A stretch of 58,031 nucleotides of DNA from positions 1 through 58,031 of the IMG/VR virus record IMGVR_UViG_3300022074_000043. One strand, written 5' to 3'. This document shows positions 15,112 through 26,295 of this stretch, one piece after another. Below the pieces are notes generated by a model. It was not told the origin of the DNA and ran no database searches. It saw only the letters and a program-made list of their open reading frames with translations. The translations under genes were made by a program, and so were the position numbers. The DNA is from a virus. The first letter of the stretch is position 1; each line of letters opens with the position of its first letter.

Positions 15112-17513
15112 CGTCCACGATTTCTCGCCAAGTCAGCCTGCGTGTTAATGCGGTATACGTTGACATCGTTTCTTTCGTCGGCAATGTCACGCTGCACAGA
15201 CATACGCTGTTGTGCTAGCTGCATAGCCTGAGTAATCTTGGCCTGATCGATCTGATAATCCATTGCATCGTTTTGCATCTTGCGTTGGATTTCCATCTGA
15301 TCGTTTGCTAGCTCTTGCTGACGGATCTCTACCAGCGGATCGCCCTGCTGTGCAGGCATCAACATAGGTGCAAGCTGCTCCAGTGTTTCTGCAATCTGCT
15401 GTGCAACCATAGCTTCCACTACATTTGGATCAATCTGCGGGATAGGTTCACCAGCAGCTTGTGCCTGCTCAATACCTTTTCTAAATACTTCCTGAACAAT
15501 ATCACGCGCAAACATTGAGACGTGATCCTGTACATGTGACTGCAACGCCAAGAAGGCTTGTGGGTTTGCTGCCAGCGCAGGTGACTGCAACAGCGCCGCG
15601 TGTACACGGATGTGTGCGCGGTGATCCTGCTGCGGGAATGCCTGCGGTGGCTTTCCCTTCATTGCTTCTGAGTTTTCTGTCGCCGGGTCTTTTGGTGCAG
15701 GTGGTTGCGGTGGCGGCAATATGCTGTCGATGTTCTTAACATCCAGCGCGTCATACATCCGGCGGTAGGCTTCATACAGATTGTGCATCTGCGGGGCAGC
15801 CTGTGCCAATTGCAGTTGTGTCTGCGCCAGTGATAAGCGCTGCGCCATAGAAAAGATCGACGGGTCAGAGACAGGAAGAATATCTACACGCCCGTCGAAA
15901 TCCTGAGCCATAATCTGTGGGTCAATGTTTGCCCCAACAGGATAGGGATAAGGCATAGGATTATTAGCAAAGATCTGCGACAGCATCCTAAACTCTGACT
16001 TTTGTGCATAGTGCAGGCGCTTGTGTATGCTTGATATAACCTTTGAACCCTGCTCAATCAGGGCCACTGTTGTTCCCACGGGAGCCTGTGCGTTGACATC
16101 TGCGACTTTTGTGTCCGCAACTTGTGCAAATCGTCTGCCCGAATCAACGACCACCCCGAGTAATTGAGCCAACGTACCAGAAGGCTCCTTGTATGGGAGT
16201 GGCATAAGAGCATTGCGAATATCACCGCCGGGAACATCAAGATCGCGGAACTCGCCCGGGTTAACAGGGTCATCGCTGTTTCTAATGCGGACGCCACGCG
16301 CTTTGAAACCGCCCGGTAGGTTCGACAAAGTACCCGCATCGATAAGCTGACGTAAGATTGAAGTCGCTGCACGGCTCAAGCCCCCTATCATGTGCAACAG
16401 GCCGAAACCATAAAAGCCCAGACCCGGCAAAAACTTATAGTGTACAAAGTAATCGCGCTTGCGGCGCATCGGATCATCTTCACGATAGTTGCGTACTACC
16501 GAGAGAATTTTTCCCGAATCTGCGTCCATAGTGACAATATACGGCAGTTTGATACCTGTTGGCTCACCTGACTGATCCATGTCTTCAAACCCGTCAAGGT
16601 CAAGATCAACATGGACTTCATATAGTGTAACCAGTTCATCAGAATAACCCGGACGCAGCCCTTGAATTTCATCAGCTTTTCCACGGACTGTTGAGTCACT
16701 TTCGTCAGTTTCGCTTGGAGATAAATCAACATCTCTATATATCCCTGCAACTTGTAGCTTCCGTATGTCATTCTCTGTCATACGAAAGACGTGTGTGTAA
16801 CGCTCCGCAGTGCGTATGTCAGAAGCTGCATACGGAACAACCAAATCTTCAGCAGGCACAAACTTTGACACCGCACGTTGCTTGGTTTCGTCAAAGTACA
16901 CCTTCTTGAAGGTCGAACCAGTAATCGGCAAATAGAACAGCATCTGATCTGTATCCTGATCAAACTCTTCCATTATCTCGGTAATCTGGTAATTCATATA
17001 GTCCTTGACACGCTGGGCCTGATCTTCCAACTCGCGTGTCTGTGCACCCAGTATTTGTGTCTTTACAGGACCGCCCGGTGGTAACATCTCACGATACGCC
17101 TGCGCCTGAAACTGCGTTACAGCTTCCGCCAACAACGGATGAGTCACACCACTAGCACCCATAAACGGCTCGTTGCGCTCTTCATAATTAATGCCGAGCA
17201 GACCCAGCCCCTTCGCAATAGCTGTTTCCCAATCTTCACGCGACGACTTGTCTTCGTCAATCTTTGAACTAAGGTCCGAGGACAAAGAGCCAAGGTCCGA
17301 ATCGTCCAAGATCTCAGCTAAGTTAGCATTGTGATCATAGACCTCAGCCTCTACTTCCATAGCCATCTCTTCTTCACCAACTAACTCAATGCCGGGCGGA
17401 AGATCTGGTAAATCCGTATTCGGTACTTGAACCTCGGTCATGGCTTGTTCAGCAGTCATGCCGGGACCGCCGGGTCCCATAGCCATGTCAACCATCTGTG
17501 GTGGTAATGCCAT
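15108..17513 (-). CDS. Portal protein
   Basis: 801 aa, the size of large podovirus portals. The portal core is recognisable: AIAKGLGLLGINYEERNEPF and GASGVTHPLLAEAVTQFQAQ, a wing region with LPITGSTFKKVYFDETKQRA, ADEIQGLRPGYSDE before a beta section, then RRKRDYFVHYKFLPGLGFYG and the channel region around VGTTVALIEQGSKVISSIHK. The last 250 residues are Gln/Ala-rich helices (LAQTQLQLAQAAPQM and onward), like a P22-type barrel. It forms the dodecameric DNA gate at one capsid vertex. Start preceded by AAAGGAA. Confidence 0.9.
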   Translation of the reverse strand: MALPPQMVDMAMGPGGPGMTAEQAMTEVQVPNTDLPDLPPGIELVGEEEMAMEVEAEVYDHNANLAEILDDSDLGSLSSDLSSKIDEDKSSREDWETAIAKGLGLLGINYEERNEPFMGASGVTHPLLAEAVTQFQAQAYREMLPPGGPVKTQILGAQTRELEDQAQRVKDYMNYQITEIMEEFDQDTDQMLFYLPITGSTFKKVYFDETKQRAVSKFVPAEDLVVPYAASDIRTAERYTHVFRMTENDIRKLQVAGIYRDVDLSPSETDESDSTVRGKADEIQGLRPGYSDELVTLYEVHVDLDLDGFEDMDQSGEPTGIKLPYIVTMDADSGKILSVVRNYREDDPMRRKRDYFVHYKFLPGLGFYGFGLLHMIGGLSRAATSILRQLIDAGTLSNLPGGFKARGVRIRNSDDPVNPGEFRDLDVPGGDIRNALMPLPYKEPSGTLAQLLGVVVDSGRRFAQVADTKVADVNAQAPVGTTVALIEQGSKVISSIHKRLHYAQKSEFRMLSQIFANNPMPYPYPVGANIDPQIMAQDFDGRVDILPVSDPSIFSMAQRLSLAQTQLQLAQAAPQMHNLYEAYRRMYDALDVKNIDSILPPPQPPAPKDPATENSEAMKGKPPQAFPQQDHRAHIRVHAALLQSPALAANPQAFLALQSHVQDHVSMFARDIVQEVFRKGIEQAQAAGEPIPQIDPNVVEAMVAQQIAETLEQLAPMLMPAQQGDPLVEIRQQELANDQMEIQRKMQNDAMDYQIDQAKITQAMQLAQQRMSVQRDIADERNDVNVYRINTQADLARNRGR

Positions 17514-21000: not shown

Positions 21001-21737
21001 AGATCAGGGAACAGGGCAGCTTCACGATATCGCGCTAGGACTTCGTCCTGCATACCCTCGACAATGTTCATGTCACCGTCAAGAAAAGCACCCTGCGTGA
21101 AAAAGTCCATGTTATCTGAAATTCTATCATGCGCGGCGATCAACTCGTCTTCAGACAACGCACCAAAACTACGGCGCTGGAAGTTCATCATAGCACCATC
21201 TACAAATGCTTCAGTTCCGATTATATCAGTTATGGTTCTAGGAACAGAGGACTCAGGTTCGCGGCTCAAGGCTTCACGCACTCTGCCATAGATTCTTTTG
21301 GCTGCTGGCGTTGCAGCTTCGACCACCTTTTCGCCAACCGCGCCGCCGACTGCACCAATACCCGTACCAATAGCAGCGGACTTGATTGTGCCCTCTACAC
21401 CTTCGCCTTCACCAGCACCATATATCCCACCTTCGATTGCACCAAGTTTCGCTGCGCCTCGGATCCCGGTGCCTATACCTGCTCTCAGTAACCCGATACC
21501 AAGACCAACGCCCGTGGGTATCGCACCTGCGATCTCGGTCCCGTATGCTGCCACTGGATTTGTCTCGCGAAACTGTTCTATGTCCTCGCGAATATCTTTG
21601 ACTTCTTGTTGGTAGGTTCTGTCGCTTGCTGCGGCTCTTGCCATAGCTTCTAGTTCGTCACCAAAACCAAAAGTCAGGCCCTGACCTGCTGCTCTAAGCA
21701 GATTGCCTGCATAACTTGTACGGGGTTGTTCAGCCAT
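18018..21737 (-). CDS. Large internal (ejected) polyvalent-type virion protein
   Basis: 1239 aa. Residues 1-150 include AAGQGLTFGFGDELEAMARA and glycine-zipper membrane stretches (ATPAAKRIYGRVREALSR follows), like phage ejection proteins. Residues 395-470 (VMHYSPIATSFEKL, then KDYLAHFNNDTKT and AGSELENILI) and 560-600 (YGHLRFQIMDDDNGRRYLWV, NEIQSN) match the pattern of large polyvalent proteins, where 'EIQSD' is usual. Near residue 1010 LGLDGVIFPDARYLS is also typical. Long coiled coils close the protein. Probably packaged and injected; located between terminase and portal. Confidence 0.75.
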   Translation of the reverse strand: MAEQPRTSYAGNLLRAAGQGLTFGFGDELEAMARAAASDRTYQQEVKDIREDIEQFRETNPVAAYGTEIAGAIPTGVGLGIGLLRAGIGTGIRGAAKLGAIEGGIYGAGEGEGVEGTIKSAAIGTGIGAVGGAVGEKVVEAATPAAKRIYGRVREALSREPESSVPRTITDIIGTEAFVDGAMMNFQRRSFGALSEDELIAAHDRISDNMDFFTQGAFLDGDMNIVEGMQDEVLARYREAALFPDLTNDEFFTDNMLLPQVTSNEGLDSVRGRLLRQFNAVSNEMAGRRGTELEQLTPEQAALYNNQFDPITLENTVNEADEAAFLQQLQGDDLAAPQAPARVDLGDEAIPPMPLSLAQSTGFKPLNDGINPPVQLGIGALDESPGLHATDVISIGSMPDQFGGTVMHYSPIATSFEKLVLDPKGLKFSASGELSAKDYLAHFNNDTKTPGGRSEIAGSELENILIANPDEKYTIDEMRTLVQSRVPQTVERLFLEGGTGPLAPDVTEGPFSNDLPYTTAQYRSDDRALGQERGVIVYSNSVPTIDVPGYGRIKPNDRGVNHGYYDNYPGYYGHLRFQIMDDDNGRRYLWVNEIQSNAVSNISSGSKVGAGYVKSLEDRLIAYSSANRVKIPYTKEVHEKMLKLESIKPEILGRNETLTKQIKEYQDEADRLKEDPTLKATPTYTLATDNEITSVYKHGMNLINDLDQNDDIRAAIYNYMRDYKQGGDRSDDYLDAVRDQMIASVDAQVGSGGSMSEDSIDALLDTVRMAFDDTNGDFTQFVPRLRAYVNDSGGEFLDTAAQKIIFDSDEFVDAVLSLPEDVSAGLKQRLEQQVASRRFYEPKSDEFKELEERALEHLKEKLGKDFYKNKFLPAFEQVQDEVVGGTGHESIFDEAFQFESSLENVVEHAAAVFTNSQRNDVLAKLADTQTEADGIAGQALQASLDYKNAIEAEPDGAVLQQLQKIAKDAIDTGGNRGFQAPTPYATGKADSQFYEFATRSAIKQAEQLGLDGVIFPDARYLSTAPGRSENPAFQKNYGSAVDKSLKGFSNAGGRVELRNNSQDPNPIVFGNGNTTKSEFTVRGIDPNDADVAEQLAPLQDQVKQAEARVTQLDKETKALEARLEEIKNDPNEYRVDASGIRRRIIRTGTDGDMIDSESQRVVNDISNKKEELRLAVERADNQKGSLQAKKDELATDYATPLRIVNLRDPATKETAQRPIRRAAGGMVRSGIGAMAREVL

Positions 21738-23227
21738 TAATAATATTCTCTAGCAGGTGGGGGTGCATCGTCTTCAAACTCTTCGCCGTCCAGACTAATA
21801 AAACCGCCTTGACGAAAACGCATCAAGGCCATAGTCATACTATCACAGAAGTCATCATGGTCGCCATTAGGAAATGATGCGATCTCTTCAATGACTTCGT
21901 CAGCGAATTTTTCACCAGCAGGATACCATACTTTGCCTGATTCAAAAATAGGAGACACAATATGCATGCGGGTTGTTTTGTCCATACCCCCGCCACCGCG
22001 CTTGCGACCCGGACTGAACGTGGCAACAGGCAAATTTATCATACGCATCTCATCAGCCAGCGGCTGACCCGACGCTTTCGCCTCTATCAGCATTAACTCT
22101 GGTTCCCAATACTCATATTCTTCCTGTGCTATTGCCTTGAGTTCAGGAAAATTCCACCGCCCCTTCTTCGCATCCATCAAAATCAAATGCTGCTCACCAT
22201 TTGAATGCGGCTGAAACACGCCCCACGTTGTAATCGCAGAGTAGTCAGCCGTCTCTTTTTTGCTGTACGCAGTGTCATAAGACTGAATTATGTAGTCCAA
22301 CTCAGGTATTGAGTCCTCTCCCCACTCCTTCCACCACTCCCGCTTGACCATAGCGGTCGCTTCGGACGTGGGATTTTGTTGCCACTGAGCATTCCATTTG
22401 CCCACGGAAAGCGAAGCTTTTACCTTCAGTAACTCTTCTTTTTGCCAAAATTCAGGCCATAATGGTTCCCCCGACGGCATTATTGCAGGAAATTCAACGA
22501 CTTCCCACTGATCAGCCATCACATCTTTGCCCATCGCGGTCAGTAACCTGCCCGTAATATCCTTCTTTGACCACCGAGTTTGGACAATAATAATTGATCC
22601 ACCCGGCTGCAAACGCTGCCGGGGGCCAGATGTGTACCACTCCCACGCATTATCATAGGCAGACGCAGACAAAGCGTCCTGTTCCGAGTGCGGGTCGTCG
22701 ATAATCAGCAAATCAGCACCACGACCAGTCATTGCAGCACCCACCCCGGCTGCAAAATATTCCCCACCAGCGCTAGTCTCCCACCGACCTGCCGCTTGGC
22801 TATCCGGTTTTAAGTCTGTATTCGGGAAAATTTCGTGATAATGTGGGTCAGCAATCAGATCACGAACCTTTCTGCCGAATCTTACAGCAAGTTCCGTGTT
22901 CATAGTAGCCTGAATAATTTTTAATTTTGGATTTCTACCTAAGAACCAAGACGGCATAAGATAGGATGCAAATTCAGATTTAGAATGACGGGGGGGCATG
23001 TTTACAATCAAACGCTTCAAGTTACCCGCCGCGATCTCTTCTAGCTTTTCCGCTATGATTCTATGGTGGGTCCCCTCTATAAAGCCGTCATACACATGCT
23101 TTACATACGACATAAAATTATCTTGGGCCTTGGACCTTGTTTCTAGGCGCTGTTGGTGCTCTTCCAGTAACAGGATTTCCTTTAGGACTTCCTCTGGCAG
23201 CAGGTCTAGGTTTTGCATGTCTGTCAT
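21737..23227 (-). CDS. terL: Terminase large subunit
   Basis: From the ATG at 23227, 496 aa. ATPase: Walker A-like PPRHSKSEFASYLMPSWFLG, adenine-motif region QATMNTELAVRFGRKVRDLI, Walker B LLIIDDPHSEQDA, and coupling motif IIIVQTRWSKKDITG. Nuclease: DTAYSKKETADYSAITTWG, MLIEAKASGQPLADEM and DDFCDSMTMAL supply the acidic residues of the RNase H-like fold. It cuts and pumps DNA into the procapsid through the portal. It is the first late gene after the divergent intergenic region; the small subunit lies 2.2 kb away. No clear ribosome site; TTG at 23233 is an alternative start. Confidence 0.93.
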   Translation of the reverse strand: MTDMQNLDLLPEEVLKEILLLEEHQQRLETRSKAQDNFMSYVKHVYDGFIEGTHHRIIAEKLEEIAAGNLKRLIVNMPPRHSKSEFASYLMPSWFLGRNPKLKIIQATMNTELAVRFGRKVRDLIADPHYHEIFPNTDLKPDSQAAGRWETSAGGEYFAAGVGAAMTGRGADLLIIDDPHSEQDALSASAYDNAWEWYTSGPRQRLQPGGSIIIVQTRWSKKDITGRLLTAMGKDVMADQWEVVEFPAIMPSGEPLWPEFWQKEELLKVKASLSVGKWNAQWQQNPTSEATAMVKREWWKEWGEDSIPELDYIIQSYDTAYSKKETADYSAITTWGVFQPHSNGEQHLILMDAKKGRWNFPELKAIAQEEYEYWEPELMLIEAKASGQPLADEMRMINLPVATFSPGRKRGGGGMDKTTRMHIVSPIFESGKVWYPAGEKFADEVIEEIASFPNGDHDDFCDSMTMALMRFRQGGFISLDGEEFEDDAPPPAREYY

Positions 23228-23233
23228 GCCCAA

Positions 23234-23473
23234 ACGATAATATCAGTGAATGAATTTATCAACCCTGCAAATTGTGCACAATCGTTCGCAGCTTGTATAC
23301 AATATAGGGGGGTGGGGGTCTGCCACAGTCAAAGTTGATTGTCAATCAAAATCAGTAACCCCATTGTTGCCAATATAGCAAAACACTTTTGCGAATTATT
23401 GGGGTAATGCTGCGTTGCTATCCGTCGTACAATCTTATCAAGAACCAACTGTGTCTGAAGGGAGAAATGGACA
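23234..23473. promoter_or_regulatory. Divergent intergenic regulatory region
   Basis: 240 bases separate the large terminase from the rightward single-gene units. It contains a perfect 12-bp palindrome ATTGTGCACAAT at 23271-23282, a second palindrome TTGTATACAA near 23296-23305, a third centred on the odd palindrome TTGATTGTCAATCAA at about 23333, and a hairpin GCAAAA-CAC-TTTTGC near 23378. A TACAAT at 23428-23433 is a possible -10 for the rightward gene. These look like operator and promoter parts; no binding protein is known. Confidence 0.6.
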
Positions 23474-23725
23474 ATGGCTAAATACTCAGCGACTCAAGAC
23501 TACACGCACATCGCCGCGTCATACGGCGGCGGTGGCGTCATCACTTACCCAGACAGCGACACGCTGGCTGTGCTAGCGAAGCGCATAACAATGGCGCACA
23601 CTCTACCCAGCATGGACAAGCGGCGGCTGCACGAGCCTATCTATGTCCGCAGAGGCAAGCGCACAATTGGCATGTATCATCTGATCGATGGTAAGCTGAA
23701 GCTCCAACGCAAGATGAATCAATAG
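23474..23725 (+). CDS. Unknown small protein, first moron-like unit
   Basis: 83 aa, basic: AKYSATQDYTHIAASYGGGG, DTLAVLAKRITMAHTLPSMD, then RRLHEPIYVRRGKRTIGMYH. GGGAG precedes the ATG. It stands alone between a divergent promoter region and an intrinsic terminator. A short glycine-rich loop near residue 18 and no membrane segment. It is on the opposite strand to the flanking terminase genes. Function unknown; its placement suggests a moron-like accessory gene. Confidence 0.7.
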   Translation: MAKYSATQDYTHIAASYGGGGVITYPDSDTLAVLAKRITMAHTLPSMDKRRLHEPIYVRRGKRTIGMYHLIDGKLKLQRKMNQ

Positions 23726-23728
23726 GAT

Positions 23729-23754
23729 GAAGGCGGCGCAAGCCGCCTTCTCTT
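23729..23754 (+). terminator. Intrinsic terminator with GNRA loop
   Basis: A perfect 9-bp stem, 23729-23737 with 23742-23750, closed by GCAA (a stable GNRA tetraloop) and followed by TCTTT. It ends the first single-gene unit four bases after the stop codon. Confidence 0.8.
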
Positions 23755-23763
23755 TCCGCCAAG

Positions 23764-23797
23764 CGCGGCGCGGCGGCGGTCGGGCGCAGGTCGCAGA
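23764..23797. repeat. GC-rich repeat copy A
   Basis: 34 bases identical to 24308-24341, starting CGCGGCGCGGCGGCGGTCGG and ending GCAGGTCGCAGA. About 80 percent G+C, unlike the flanks. Lies directly after the first terminator. A shorter related word (GCAGGTCGCAGA) recurs at 25106-25117. No terminal inverted repeats or target duplications were seen. Confidence 0.85.
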
Positions 23798-23931
23798 ACG
23801 CAGATCGATTATTGCATTTTTAACAAAAGACATTTGCCAAACTAGCTATTGTATTAATCCATTGTAAAGACTACCTTGGATACATGGGATTTACCCATAC
23901 ATGTTAACAGTCAAAAGAAAGGGATAGCTCT

Positions 23932-24243
23932 ATGACTGATATCAACATCACAATCACCGTCGCCGCAGACGGTAAACCTACAGTGAAGGTAGGCAACGCG
24001 CCTGTGACTGTAGCCAACACCCGGACGCACAAGCGCGGTCCGATGTTCGACGTAATCAAGCGTGACGTTTTAGCTACGCTGAAACAGCGTCGTCATACAA
24101 AGACGACGTGCAAATACCTGAAACGTGAGTTAGGAATAACCACCAGTCAGGTTTATAACGCGGTATACCAGCTACGCGCTGACGGCTTCGCTATCGACAG
24201 CCGAAATGGCAGCGGGTCGTTTGGGTATCGTTTGGTCGGGTAA
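23932..24243 (+). CDS. Winged-helix/HTH regulator, second moron-like unit
   Basis: 103 aa. After a beta-rich N-terminus (NITITVAADGKPTVKVGNAP) the chain has a winged-helix segment: MFDVIKRDVLATLKQRRHTK, then TCKYLKRELGITTSQVYNAV as recognition helices and YQLRADGFAIDSRNGSGSFG as the wing. AAAGGG precedes the ATG, and a strong terminator follows it at once. It may repress the neighbouring units or late genes. Family not identified further. Confidence 0.75.
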   Translation: MTDINITITVAADGKPTVKVGNAPVTVANTRTHKRGPMFDVIKRDVLATLKQRRHTKTTCKYLKRELGITTSQVYNAVYQLRADGFAIDSRNGSGSFGYRLVG

Positions 24244-24258
24244 TATCCCGCCCGACTC

Positions 24259-24299
24259 GGCGGCTGTGGTGTTCTCCCTACCACAGCCGCCTTTTTTTT
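24259..24299 (+). terminator. Intrinsic terminator of the HTH unit
   Basis: A perfect 12-bp stem (24259-24270 with 24280-24291), 9-base loop and eight T residues (24292-24299). It lies 16 bases after the stop codon and closes the second single-gene unit. Confidence 0.92.
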
Positions 24300-24307
24300 A
24301 CACAGAA

Positions 24308-24341
24308 CGCGGCGCGGCGGCGGTCGGGCGCAGGTCGCAGA
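24308..24341. repeat. GC-rich repeat copy B
   Basis: Identical over 34 bases to 23764-23797 and again placed just after a terminator. Together with copy A it encloses the HTH unit as a direct repeat 544 bases apart, so recombination between copies could delete or swap that unit. Confidence 0.85.
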
Positions 24342-24347
24342 TTGTTA

Positions 24348-24376
24348 TTGTTTTATATATTTATTTATGGGATAAT
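24348..24376 (+). promoter_or_regulatory. Sigma70-like promoter of the third unit
   Basis: TTGTTT at 24348-24353, a 17-base spacer and GATAAT at 24371-24376, in an AT-rich stretch directly after the GC-rich repeat. It lies 28 bases before the ATG of the gene at 24405, leaving room for a short leader with GGAAGGG. Confidence 0.55.
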
Positions 24377-24404
24377 CTTATATAACCATTGGAAGGGATA
24401 TCAA

Positions 24405-25034
24405 ATGGAACAAGTAAAACTAGATTTTCCGATGCTGTCGAAGCCGTCAAAAATGCCCGGCTATTCGATCAACCGCGACGCTAGGCTGTGTCATACTGGG
24501 TCGAAGCTTCGCAAGGTCAAGGGCAGCACATGCGAGAATTGCTACGCATGCAAAGGCCGCTATAACATGCCAAACGTGATCGACGCGATGGCGCGGCGCG
24601 AAGTGTTTTTCAATGCGTTGGATTTTGTCCCGCGCATGGTCGCGCTATTGCACAGCAAGCGGGTGGCAAAGCATCCAGAATTTAGATGGTTTGACAGCGG
24701 CGACGTTGACAGCGTCCCGATGGGTCTAAACATTCTAGACGTTTGTGATGCGACGCCGCATCTACAACACTGGATACCAAGCCGCGAATATGGCATCTGG
24801 GCAAAAGTGTTAAAGCTTCGCAAGCTTCCCGACAATGTCACGTTGCGTATGTCCGCAACAATGATAGACGGCATACCCGCCGGATCATGGGAAAACACTA
24901 GCACGGTAAATAGCAAGGCGATGGCAGGTCATATCGGGCACCGATGCCCCGCGCCGCAGCAGGGCAACAAATGCGCCGATTGCCGCGCATGCTGGGATCG
25001 CACAATTGAAAACGTCGCATATATCGAACACTAG
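24405..25034 (+). CDS. DUF7227 (Gp88-like) protein, third moron-like unit
   Basis: From the ATG at 24405 (GGAAGGG upstream), 209 aa. The pattern is that of phage Gp88/DUF7227 proteins: an N-terminal Cys region (ARLCHTGSKLRKVKG, then CENCYACKGRY), WFDSGDVDSVPMGLNILDVC in the middle, and a C-terminal CPAPQQGNKCADCRACWDRT. The Cys clusters could hold a metal or iron-sulfur centre. Function is unknown across the family. It has its own promoter and terminator, unlike other genes here. Confidence 0.8.
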   Translation: MEQVKLDFPMLSKPSKMPGYSINRDARLCHTGSKLRKVKGSTCENCYACKGRYNMPNVIDAMARREVFFNALDFVPRMVALLHSKRVAKHPEFRWFDSGDVDSVPMGLNILDVCDATPHLQHWIPSREYGIWAKVLKLRKLPDNVTLRMSATMIDGIPAGSWENTSTVNSKAMAGHIGHRCPAPQQGNKCADCRACWDRTIENVAYIEH

Positions 25035-25040
25035 GACAGC

Positions 25041-25070
25041 AAGCCTAGCTGGTTTACCAGCTAGGCTTTT
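25041..25070 (+). terminator. Intrinsic terminator of the DUF7227 unit
   Basis: A perfect 12-bp stem (25041-25052 with 25057-25068), loop TTTA, followed by a short T run ending at 25070. It follows the stop codon by six bases. It is also near the end of the convergent nuclease gene (stop at 25077). Confidence 0.85.
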
Positions 25071-25076
25071 GCTATG

Positions 25077-25517
25077 TCACGCCGCCGACTCGCCGTCCGC
25101 AGGTTGCAGGTCGCAGATCCACCGTGCAAGGGCGCAGGTGCGAAGCGCAGAAGGCGCAGATCGCAGGTCACCGCACCATGAGGCCGCAGATCGCAGGTCG
25201 TCGATCCTTGAACCTTGCAACTTGGCTGCTAAACTACCGTCAAATAAAAATATATCACTCGTCGAGGGGCAGTGTAGCAGGAAAAAACTTACGCCATTAC
25301 AGCGCGTATGCCCTAAATGCCAAGCAATCTGGGACTTTGATACAGATACCTTCCCATTTTTAATTATTTTTAATTCACACCATATCGGCACACCATCCAT
25401 GCACAGATATACGTCTGGCATACCTTCACCAGCCCTATTCTCTATTCGCTGGAAGTGGGTCTTTTTCGGTAAATTCTGCTTCAATGAGTTCCACAGACTG
25501 CGTTCTGTCTTTGGCAT
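25077..25517 (-). CDS. VRR-NUC-like PD-(D/E)xK nuclease
   Basis: 146 aa from the ATG at 25517, preceded by AAAAGGG; a TTG at 25523 is an alternative. The nuclease core is RIENRAGEGMPDVYLCMDGV and IWCELKIIKNGKVSVSKSQI, giving Glu26, Asp35, Glu48 and Lys50, then AWHLGH. VRR-NUC proteins are structure-specific or Holliday-junction-type nucleases in many phages. From about residue 105 the chain (DDLRSAASWCGDLRSAPSAL) is encoded by the GC-rich repeat cluster and looks like an added tail. Downstream of the small terminase gene. Confidence 0.75.
   Translation of the reverse strand: MPKTERSLWNSLKQNLPKKTHFQRIENRAGEGMPDVYLCMDGVPIWCELKIIKNGKVSVSKSQIAWHLGHTRCNGVSFFLLHCPSTSDIFLFDGSLAAKLQGSRIDDLRSAASWCGDLRSAPSALRTCALARWICDLQPADGESAA
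25081..25199. repeat. GC-rich repeat cluster C
   Basis: A third cluster of the same repeat family directly after the DUF7227 terminator: GCAGGTCGCAGATC at 25106-25119 and the permuted word GCAGATCGCAGGTC twice, at 25156-25169 and 25186-25199. It shares GCAGGTCGCAGA with copies A and B. On the minus strand it is the last 40 or so codons of the nuclease gene. The cluster is followed by CCTTGAACCTTG, a word that recurs elsewhere. Confidence 0.75.
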
Positions 25518-26028
25518 CTTCAACCCTTTTCATCTCAGGTTCGGGGAATGCGGCTGGATATTGTTTTCTAATAGCGGCGAGTCTGGCAACAATATCATCA
25601 CGCGACATGTTGTCGAGTTGATGCACATGCGTCGACTCTCGCCTGTCGATGGTCAAACCACCCAGACTGGATCTAATCTTTTCAGCATTGATGGCAGCAC
25701 TGAATTGTCCAGCCTCTTCAGCAGATATAGACAATTCTTCAAATCGTTTGAGTTGATTGATCAAGGTCACGCCATATCTGCGTTCTCTGGCTTGCCGCAT
25801 GTCTTTGATCAGTTCGGGTACTTCAGGGAACGACTTACCATCAAGCAACTTGGCGGCATGTTGTGCGGCACTACCTTCAGCATAGCCAGCTTTTCTAGCA
25901 CACTCAGCATTGGAATATTTGCCCTCGACATAATACTTGGCAAATTCACGCTGTCTGTTGGTAAGCCCAGCAGGTCTACCAGCTTTTCCTATAGTGTTTT
26001 CTGTGGGTTTATCCTTTTTATTTTCCAA
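25435..26028 (-). CDS. terS: Terminase small subunit-like protein
   Basis: From TTG at 26028 (GAGG upstream), 197 aa; TTG at 26052 is another option. The N-terminal DNA-binding region is typical: GRPAGLTNRQREFAKYYVEG then YSNAECARKAGYAEGSAAQH with LL as the recognition part. A long central helix (LIKDMRQARERRYGVTLINQ) suits ring assembly. Expected role: recognise the packaging site and activate the large subunit. It overlaps the nuclease gene by 83 bases and is separated from the large subunit by three opposite-strand genes. Confidence 0.8.
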   Translation of the reverse strand: MENKKDKPTENTIGKAGRPAGLTNRQREFAKYYVEGKYSNAECARKAGYAEGSAAQHAAKLLDGKSFPEVPELIKDMRQARERRYGVTLINQLKRFEELSISAEEAGQFSAAINAEKIRSSLGGLTIDRRESTHVHQLDNMSRDDIVARLAAIRKQYPAAFPEPEMKRVEDAKDRTQSVELIEAEFTEKDPLPANRE

Positions 26029-26053
26029 AATCCATCCTCGTACAGACTCCAAA

Positions 26054-26131: not shown

Positions 26132-26295
26132 TATTTTCAGAAAAAAATAAATTAAATCGTTTACCCGTAGAAAACATTATATGTCCTGTTATTTTTATGT
26201 TTGACCACATGGGATATTATGCTAGGATCTTACTAAATCAGGTGTTAATTGTAAAGCACCAAGGTTCAAGGTTCAAGGTAGAAGGGGTTCTTACC

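Follow-up and report, generated by a model that had tools for sequence, protein, structure and literature searches.

The nearest isolates of the phage analyzed here are HTVC027P and 023Pt_psg01, whose large terminase (TerL) is about 61% identical to that of our window. HTVC027P is described as lytic, and according to its published RNA-seq (PMC12753301), gp33, which the authors describe as a protein of unknown function, and gp34 belong to an extra cluster with high expression at 6–9 h, outside the early, middle and late classes, and gp30 to another such extra cluster. When analyzing this genome, we found that gp30, gp33 and gp34 are the minus-strand genes of the terS–terL gap, nearly all other genes being on the plus strand, and that gp33 is a homolog of GP88. 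Homologs of GP88 also occupy early positions in HTVC033P and CRP-4, and HTVC023P has a homolog of the divergent GP88 type (gp26) in the interval from the nuclease gene to terL, although in this case it shares the strand of terL.

The window, by which we mean the whole stretch of 58,031 nucleotides of the IMG/VR record IMGVR_UViG_3300022074_000043, has a comparable gap. Three plus-strand ORFs are flanked by terL on one side and by a nuclease/terS pair on the other, with all flanks on the minus strand (Table 1), which confirms the original prediction of three rightward, opposite-strand units at this place. The G+C content of this island is 51.6%, compared with mostly 43–50% in the rest of the genome. 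The cumulative GC skew of the record reaches its minimum at 26049, which is both the terS start and the point at which the genes change direction. In the interval separating terL from the island, a G-rich stretch and the word CAGTAACCCC (≤1 mismatch) are retained in 58 of 61 islands despite variable surroundings, and this element is a candidate terL promoter or packaging element.

Table 1 Features of the terS–terL locus in the window
Feature	Position	Strand	Evidence or remark
terL, left flank	21737–23233	-	phrog_38 2.1e-105, Terminase_6C
Conserved element of the terL–island interval (TAGGGGGGTGGGGGT ... CAGTAACCCC)	23305–23362		In 58/61 islands
Unit 1, 83-aa protein (p83)	23474–23725	+	No family match; relatives in few islands
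Terminator hairpin 1	23729–23757	+	z -4.0
GC-rich joint and heptamer array 1 (GCAGGTC GCAGAAC GCAGATC)	23762–23806	+	Direct repeats
Unit 2, 103-aa winged-helix protein, HTH_11	23932–24243	+	PF08279 2.6e-8, above cut-off
Terminator 2, T8 tail	24259–24299	+	Terminator scan, RNA fold
Heptamer array 2	24310–24342	+	Near-copy of array 1, 97% over 33 nt
Candidate GP88 promoter TTGTTT-17-GATAAT	24348–24376	+	8/12 to consensus; conserved in close relatives
Unit 3, GP88 protein, 209 aa	24405–25034	+	PF17338 3.7e-21; dN/dS about 0.02
Terminator hairpin 3	25042–25072	+	z -6.5
Heptamer array 3, overlapping nuclease gene 3' end	25098–25213	+	Direct repeats
Nuclease-like gene, Holliday-junction-resolvase-like	25077–25523	-	phrog_2165 1.9e-22; weak Hjc match 0.083
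terS, right flank	25435–26052	-	PF03592 1.9e-8, phrog_51 1.8e-12

Each unit was expected to carry its own expression signals, and a ribosome-site-like sequence was indeed present upstream of every start (AAGGGAG, AAAGGG and GGAAGGG in units 1–3). RNA folds 3' of the three stops reached -20.9, -26.5 and -27.2 kcal/mol (z -4.0, -6.6 and -6.5), all better than every one of 200 shuffles per hairpin. The hairpin part of the predicted strong intrinsic terminators therefore stands for all three units, but only the second is fully strong, since it alone has a long T run (TTTTTTTT, against TCTTT and TTTTGCT at the other two) and was the only one reported by a strict terminator scan. The proposed good promoter before unit 3 is conserved in close relatives but only a moderate sigma-70 match (3/6 plus 5/6, spacer 17), under the threshold of the promoter scan. 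A search of the window for a convincing promoter of units 1 and 2 found none. The word TATGGGATAATC, considered as a promoter word common to the whole genome, did not occur above chance.

Among the encoded proteins, the 103-aa product is a winged-helix protein, as expected, and the 83-aa product had no match in any family collection searched. The 209-aa protein, previously read as DUF7227, had no match to that profile (PF23872) at E ≤ 1 and belongs instead to GP88 (PF17338; 3.7e-21, 76.5 bits against a curated cut-off of 24.4). Its predicted structure is confident (pLDDT 88.6) and matches GP88 members of BFVD, including those of archaeal viruses, with TM up to 0.86, followed by Gp37/Gp68-like proteins (E 3e-4) and DUF7227 (E 1.2e-3), so that the likeness to the GP88 family and Gp37/Gp68-like viral proteins extends over sequence family and predicted fold. 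The model nevertheless gave no significant fold match in the PDB, a sequence search of the PDB returned nothing of note, and the literature on GP88, DUF5131 and DUF7227 that we searched held nothing useful on function. Because no known fold matches in the PDB, the role of GP88 can only be guessed at; it has invariant Cys and His residues, and it may be a metal- or Fe-S-binding protein.

The dN/dS values in close pairs were 0.015–0.023 for GP88, 0.037 for terL, 0.17 for p83 and 0.19–0.37 for the winged-helix gene, and judged by these ratios GP88 is strongly constrained, more so than terL. Within the winged-helix gene, both ends are conserved and the middle changes fast (close relatives are 39–82% identical), a pattern resembling a swap of the DNA-binding part; the protein would be a regulator. 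A PADLOC search for defence and counter-defence systems gave nothing above noise. Anti-CRISPR (acr/aca) loci pair an inhibitor gene with an Aca-type HTH regulator; the island has an HTH protein and a small gene with no family match, but the two lie in separate units.

To describe the island across relatives, we compared the window with 60 IMG/VR loci encoding both the nuclease and TerL, giving 61 islands in all; these relatives are metagenomic contigs, one of them present twice and some near-identical, with 44 distinct nuclease ends. An opposite-strand island of 1.8–3.8 kb was found in 60 of the 60 related loci with both flanks, and the island is thus a fixed feature. Its content is variable: automated gene calling in the 61 islands gave 77 clusters, 30 of them single, the p83 family occurring in five islands, the HTH family of the window in 15 and a winged-helix protein in 38. 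The slot beside the nuclease is filled in all 61, by GP88 (41), divergent GP88 (2) or a second Cys-rich family (18). The original prediction had proposed a comparison of the block for presence or absence, and the outcome is divided, the trio being variable cargo, whereas the island as a whole is fixed, as is its GP88 slot. The second Cys-rich family has a terminal His and a C-terminal Cys motif similar to that of GP88, and the alignable region is confined to this motif (E 0.018, hhalign probability 2.5). Given this restricted alignment and a poor structural model (pLDDT 56), it cannot be taken as a proven homolog, and we regard the two families as possibly related on the strength of the motif.

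Comparison with close relatives showed that homology switches at the p83 stop, shortly after the HTH start and just before the HTH end, and at the GP88 start and stop. Over 1204 ordered pairs, breakpoints, defined as BLAST edges rather than by a formal recombination test, were enriched 2.8-fold at stops and terminators and 1.6-fold at starts, and were depleted in gene bodies (0.43-fold). In four loci (L002, L005, L071 and L082), slot 1 holds a gene start and about six codons, directly followed by a terminator; L085 has in this slot a 113-aa gene with the same start, and the stub is apparently, from its sequence, the remnant of a gene lost in the four and still present in L085.

The gaps of HTVC027P (gp30–gp34) and 023Pt_psg01 resemble that of the window in having a GP88 homolog opposite to the terL strand, but differ in that terS is inverted too and the gap holds additional genes on the terL strand. 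Since gp33 and gp34, opposite-strand genes in the gap, form their own temporal class (PMC12753301), the claim that the block is transcribed apart is supported for GP88, through transcripts of this relative rather than of the window itself. In HTVC027P (L096 2653–3015; MN698241.1 about 16225–16587), we also noted an unannotated nuclease-like ORF, with the annotated gp32 lying antisense over the ORF end.

A feature absent from the original prediction is that each of the three terminators of the window is followed by an array of heptamer direct repeats. Arrays with the core CGCAGR (heptamer CGCAGGN) and a mode spacing of 7 nt are present in all 61 islands, 168 on the island strand and 0 on the other. 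In every island one follows the last gene, compared with only one island that has an array before the first gene, and a terminator-like hairpin precedes 136 of 146 arrays, compared with 22 of 122 random windows. When viral contigs were scanned for the pattern, 27 matched, 26 of which belong to this phage group by their neighbouring genes. A sequence-blind scan for lag 7 returned 23 segments across 155 kb of island sequence and three across 612 kb of flanks, lag 9 being common only in the flanks; the short arrays of the window itself fall under the strict lag-7 cut, and at a looser threshold three of its four segments lie in this region. In the HTVC027P clade, 38 lag-7 segments lie upstream of terL and none downstream, and 22 of the 28 loci with GP88 have arrays flanking it on a single side or on both. 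This period around the GP88 homolog is shared with the window, but the letters are CAAGCNN rather than the CGCAGGN of the window's clade. By the same scan, GP88 is without arrays in five loci of this clade and in 023Pt_psg01.

Several explanations of the arrays were discarded. They do not fold beyond shuffles (z 0.9, -0.1 and 0.3), which speaks against RNA structures, and they are not the recombination breakpoints, which show no enrichment at the arrays themselves (1.07-fold). They are not operators of the island's winged-helix protein, as only 38 of 61 islands encode one, and a genome scan for host repeats matched unrelated, mostly GC-rich bacteria and gave no host clue. Tandem GCAGRTC heptamers are in fact found in many such bacteria (loci L102–L181). 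A second heptamer was seen in the window, with CAAGGTT repeats beyond terS (26258–26280) and an inverted match at the nuclease end (25205–25225); these repeats resemble the CAAGCTT arrays of pelagiphages.

The conserved tail of the nuclease is encoded within the last array, which extends over the 3' end of that gene, and in HTVC027P the nuclease end is likewise a heptamer array. Internal arrays also match the nuclease end of their own genome beyond expectation (mean rank 12.1 of 44, expected 22.5), a test that is confounded by shared ancestry. The arrays could therefore be slippage by-products or copies of this gene end with no function of their own. We consider this possible, though rather doubtful, given that 61 of 61 islands retain them, always with the same strand, period and place, and that they occur in two clades with different letters. 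It is also conceivable, if still less probable, that they are regulatory sites, acting as activator, antitermination or roadblock elements that set the expression time of the island. Their position right after a terminator and right before the next promoter would suit such sites, as would the separate temporal class in HTVC027P and the array 5' of GP88, which continues into TTGACA in the majority of the loci examined for that clade. Against this stand the array behind the last gene of every island, which has no promoter behind it, the winged-helix protein restricted to 38 of 61 islands, the letters that differ between clades, and the array-free loci with GP88 mentioned above.

Packaging sites bound by TerS, or a replication origin, would be consistent with the location between terS and terL and with the skew minimum adjoining the island. 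But this minimum coincides with the gene-direction switch, and the arrays are spread over up to 2 kb, after terminators, unit by unit, making such sites quite improbable. A dedicated phage element that closes and separates exchangeable transcription units is a speculative and, by our estimate, unlikely option that falls between the last two; its period and place, not its letters, would be what is conserved, and it was perhaps seeded from the nuclease end and read by a phage protein (nuclease or TerS) in recombination or transcription. If this were true, the arrays would be a phage analog of cassette-boundary sites. Integron gene cassettes share with this locus the 3' repeat after the gene, one-way orientation and exchangeable units, but the record, which is possibly incomplete, has no integrase or resolvase match, including PF00589, and here we see direct heptamers with no stable fold instead of palindromic attC, in units that may each carry their own promoter. 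Heptameric intergenic repeats of bacteria, such as TAACTGA in Beggiatoaceae (PMC4679880), are also 7-nt direct repeats, for which a regulatory role is at most proposed, the difference being that the repeats here occur at a single phage locus and in association with terminators.

The units had also been called moron-like. Morons and accessory-gene hot spots of phages do resemble this island in having small genes, each unit with its own terminator, in the opposite strand and in a cargo that varies among relatives. Classical morons, that is, recently acquired optional genes with their own promoter and terminator, expressed from the prophage and changing the host, would fit the terminators of the units (three hairpins, z -4.0 to -6.6), the elevated G+C and the variable cargo. 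As to promoters, a moderate and conserved one is seen at GP88 only. Against this reading, presence is not patchy, as all relatives carry the island and a gene in the GP88 slot, strongly constrained where it is GP88; the possibly incomplete record has no integrase or resolvase match; and the nearest isolate is lytic. An island that is permanent, with one slot always filled, no sign of lysogeny genes and heptamer arrays between its units, makes classical morons the least probable of the readings considered. With GP88 near-core and an integrase not found, the term moron in its strict sense is not supported; "moron-like" describes how the cargo units are built but does not suit the island as a whole.

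Taken together, we favour, with a probability of about 0.68, a permanent, separately transcribed opposite-strand island within the packaging module, in a lineage of marine phages related to the HTVC027P and HTVC023P types, consisting of one obligatory gene and exchangeable units. The layout, the universality, the mosaic joints, the one-strand arrays and the 7-nt period in two clades are all read from the sequences themselves. The obligatory gene, GP88 or the alternative Cys-rich family, adjoins the nuclease gene, and the rest would be short exchangeable units of small genes, each ending in an intrinsic terminator and a 7-nt-period array before the promoter of the next. The arrays most likely mark the unit joints, with the 3' end of the nuclease gene as the possible source of their spread. 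Units would be swapped by homologous recombination within the conserved terminator–array–promoter joints, and the terminators would keep antisense read-through low and so permit opposite-strand units among late genes. The island products may have a part in host takeover or in the switch from early to middle expression.

This permanent island would connect the temporal classes that RNA-seq of a SAR11 phage left unexplained with a sequence architecture common to a second phage clade, namely an obligatory GP88-slot gene, a mosaic island and separators with a 7-nt period. A cultured phage would thereby offer a means of testing both the separators and GP88, a viral family that is widespread but has no assigned function.
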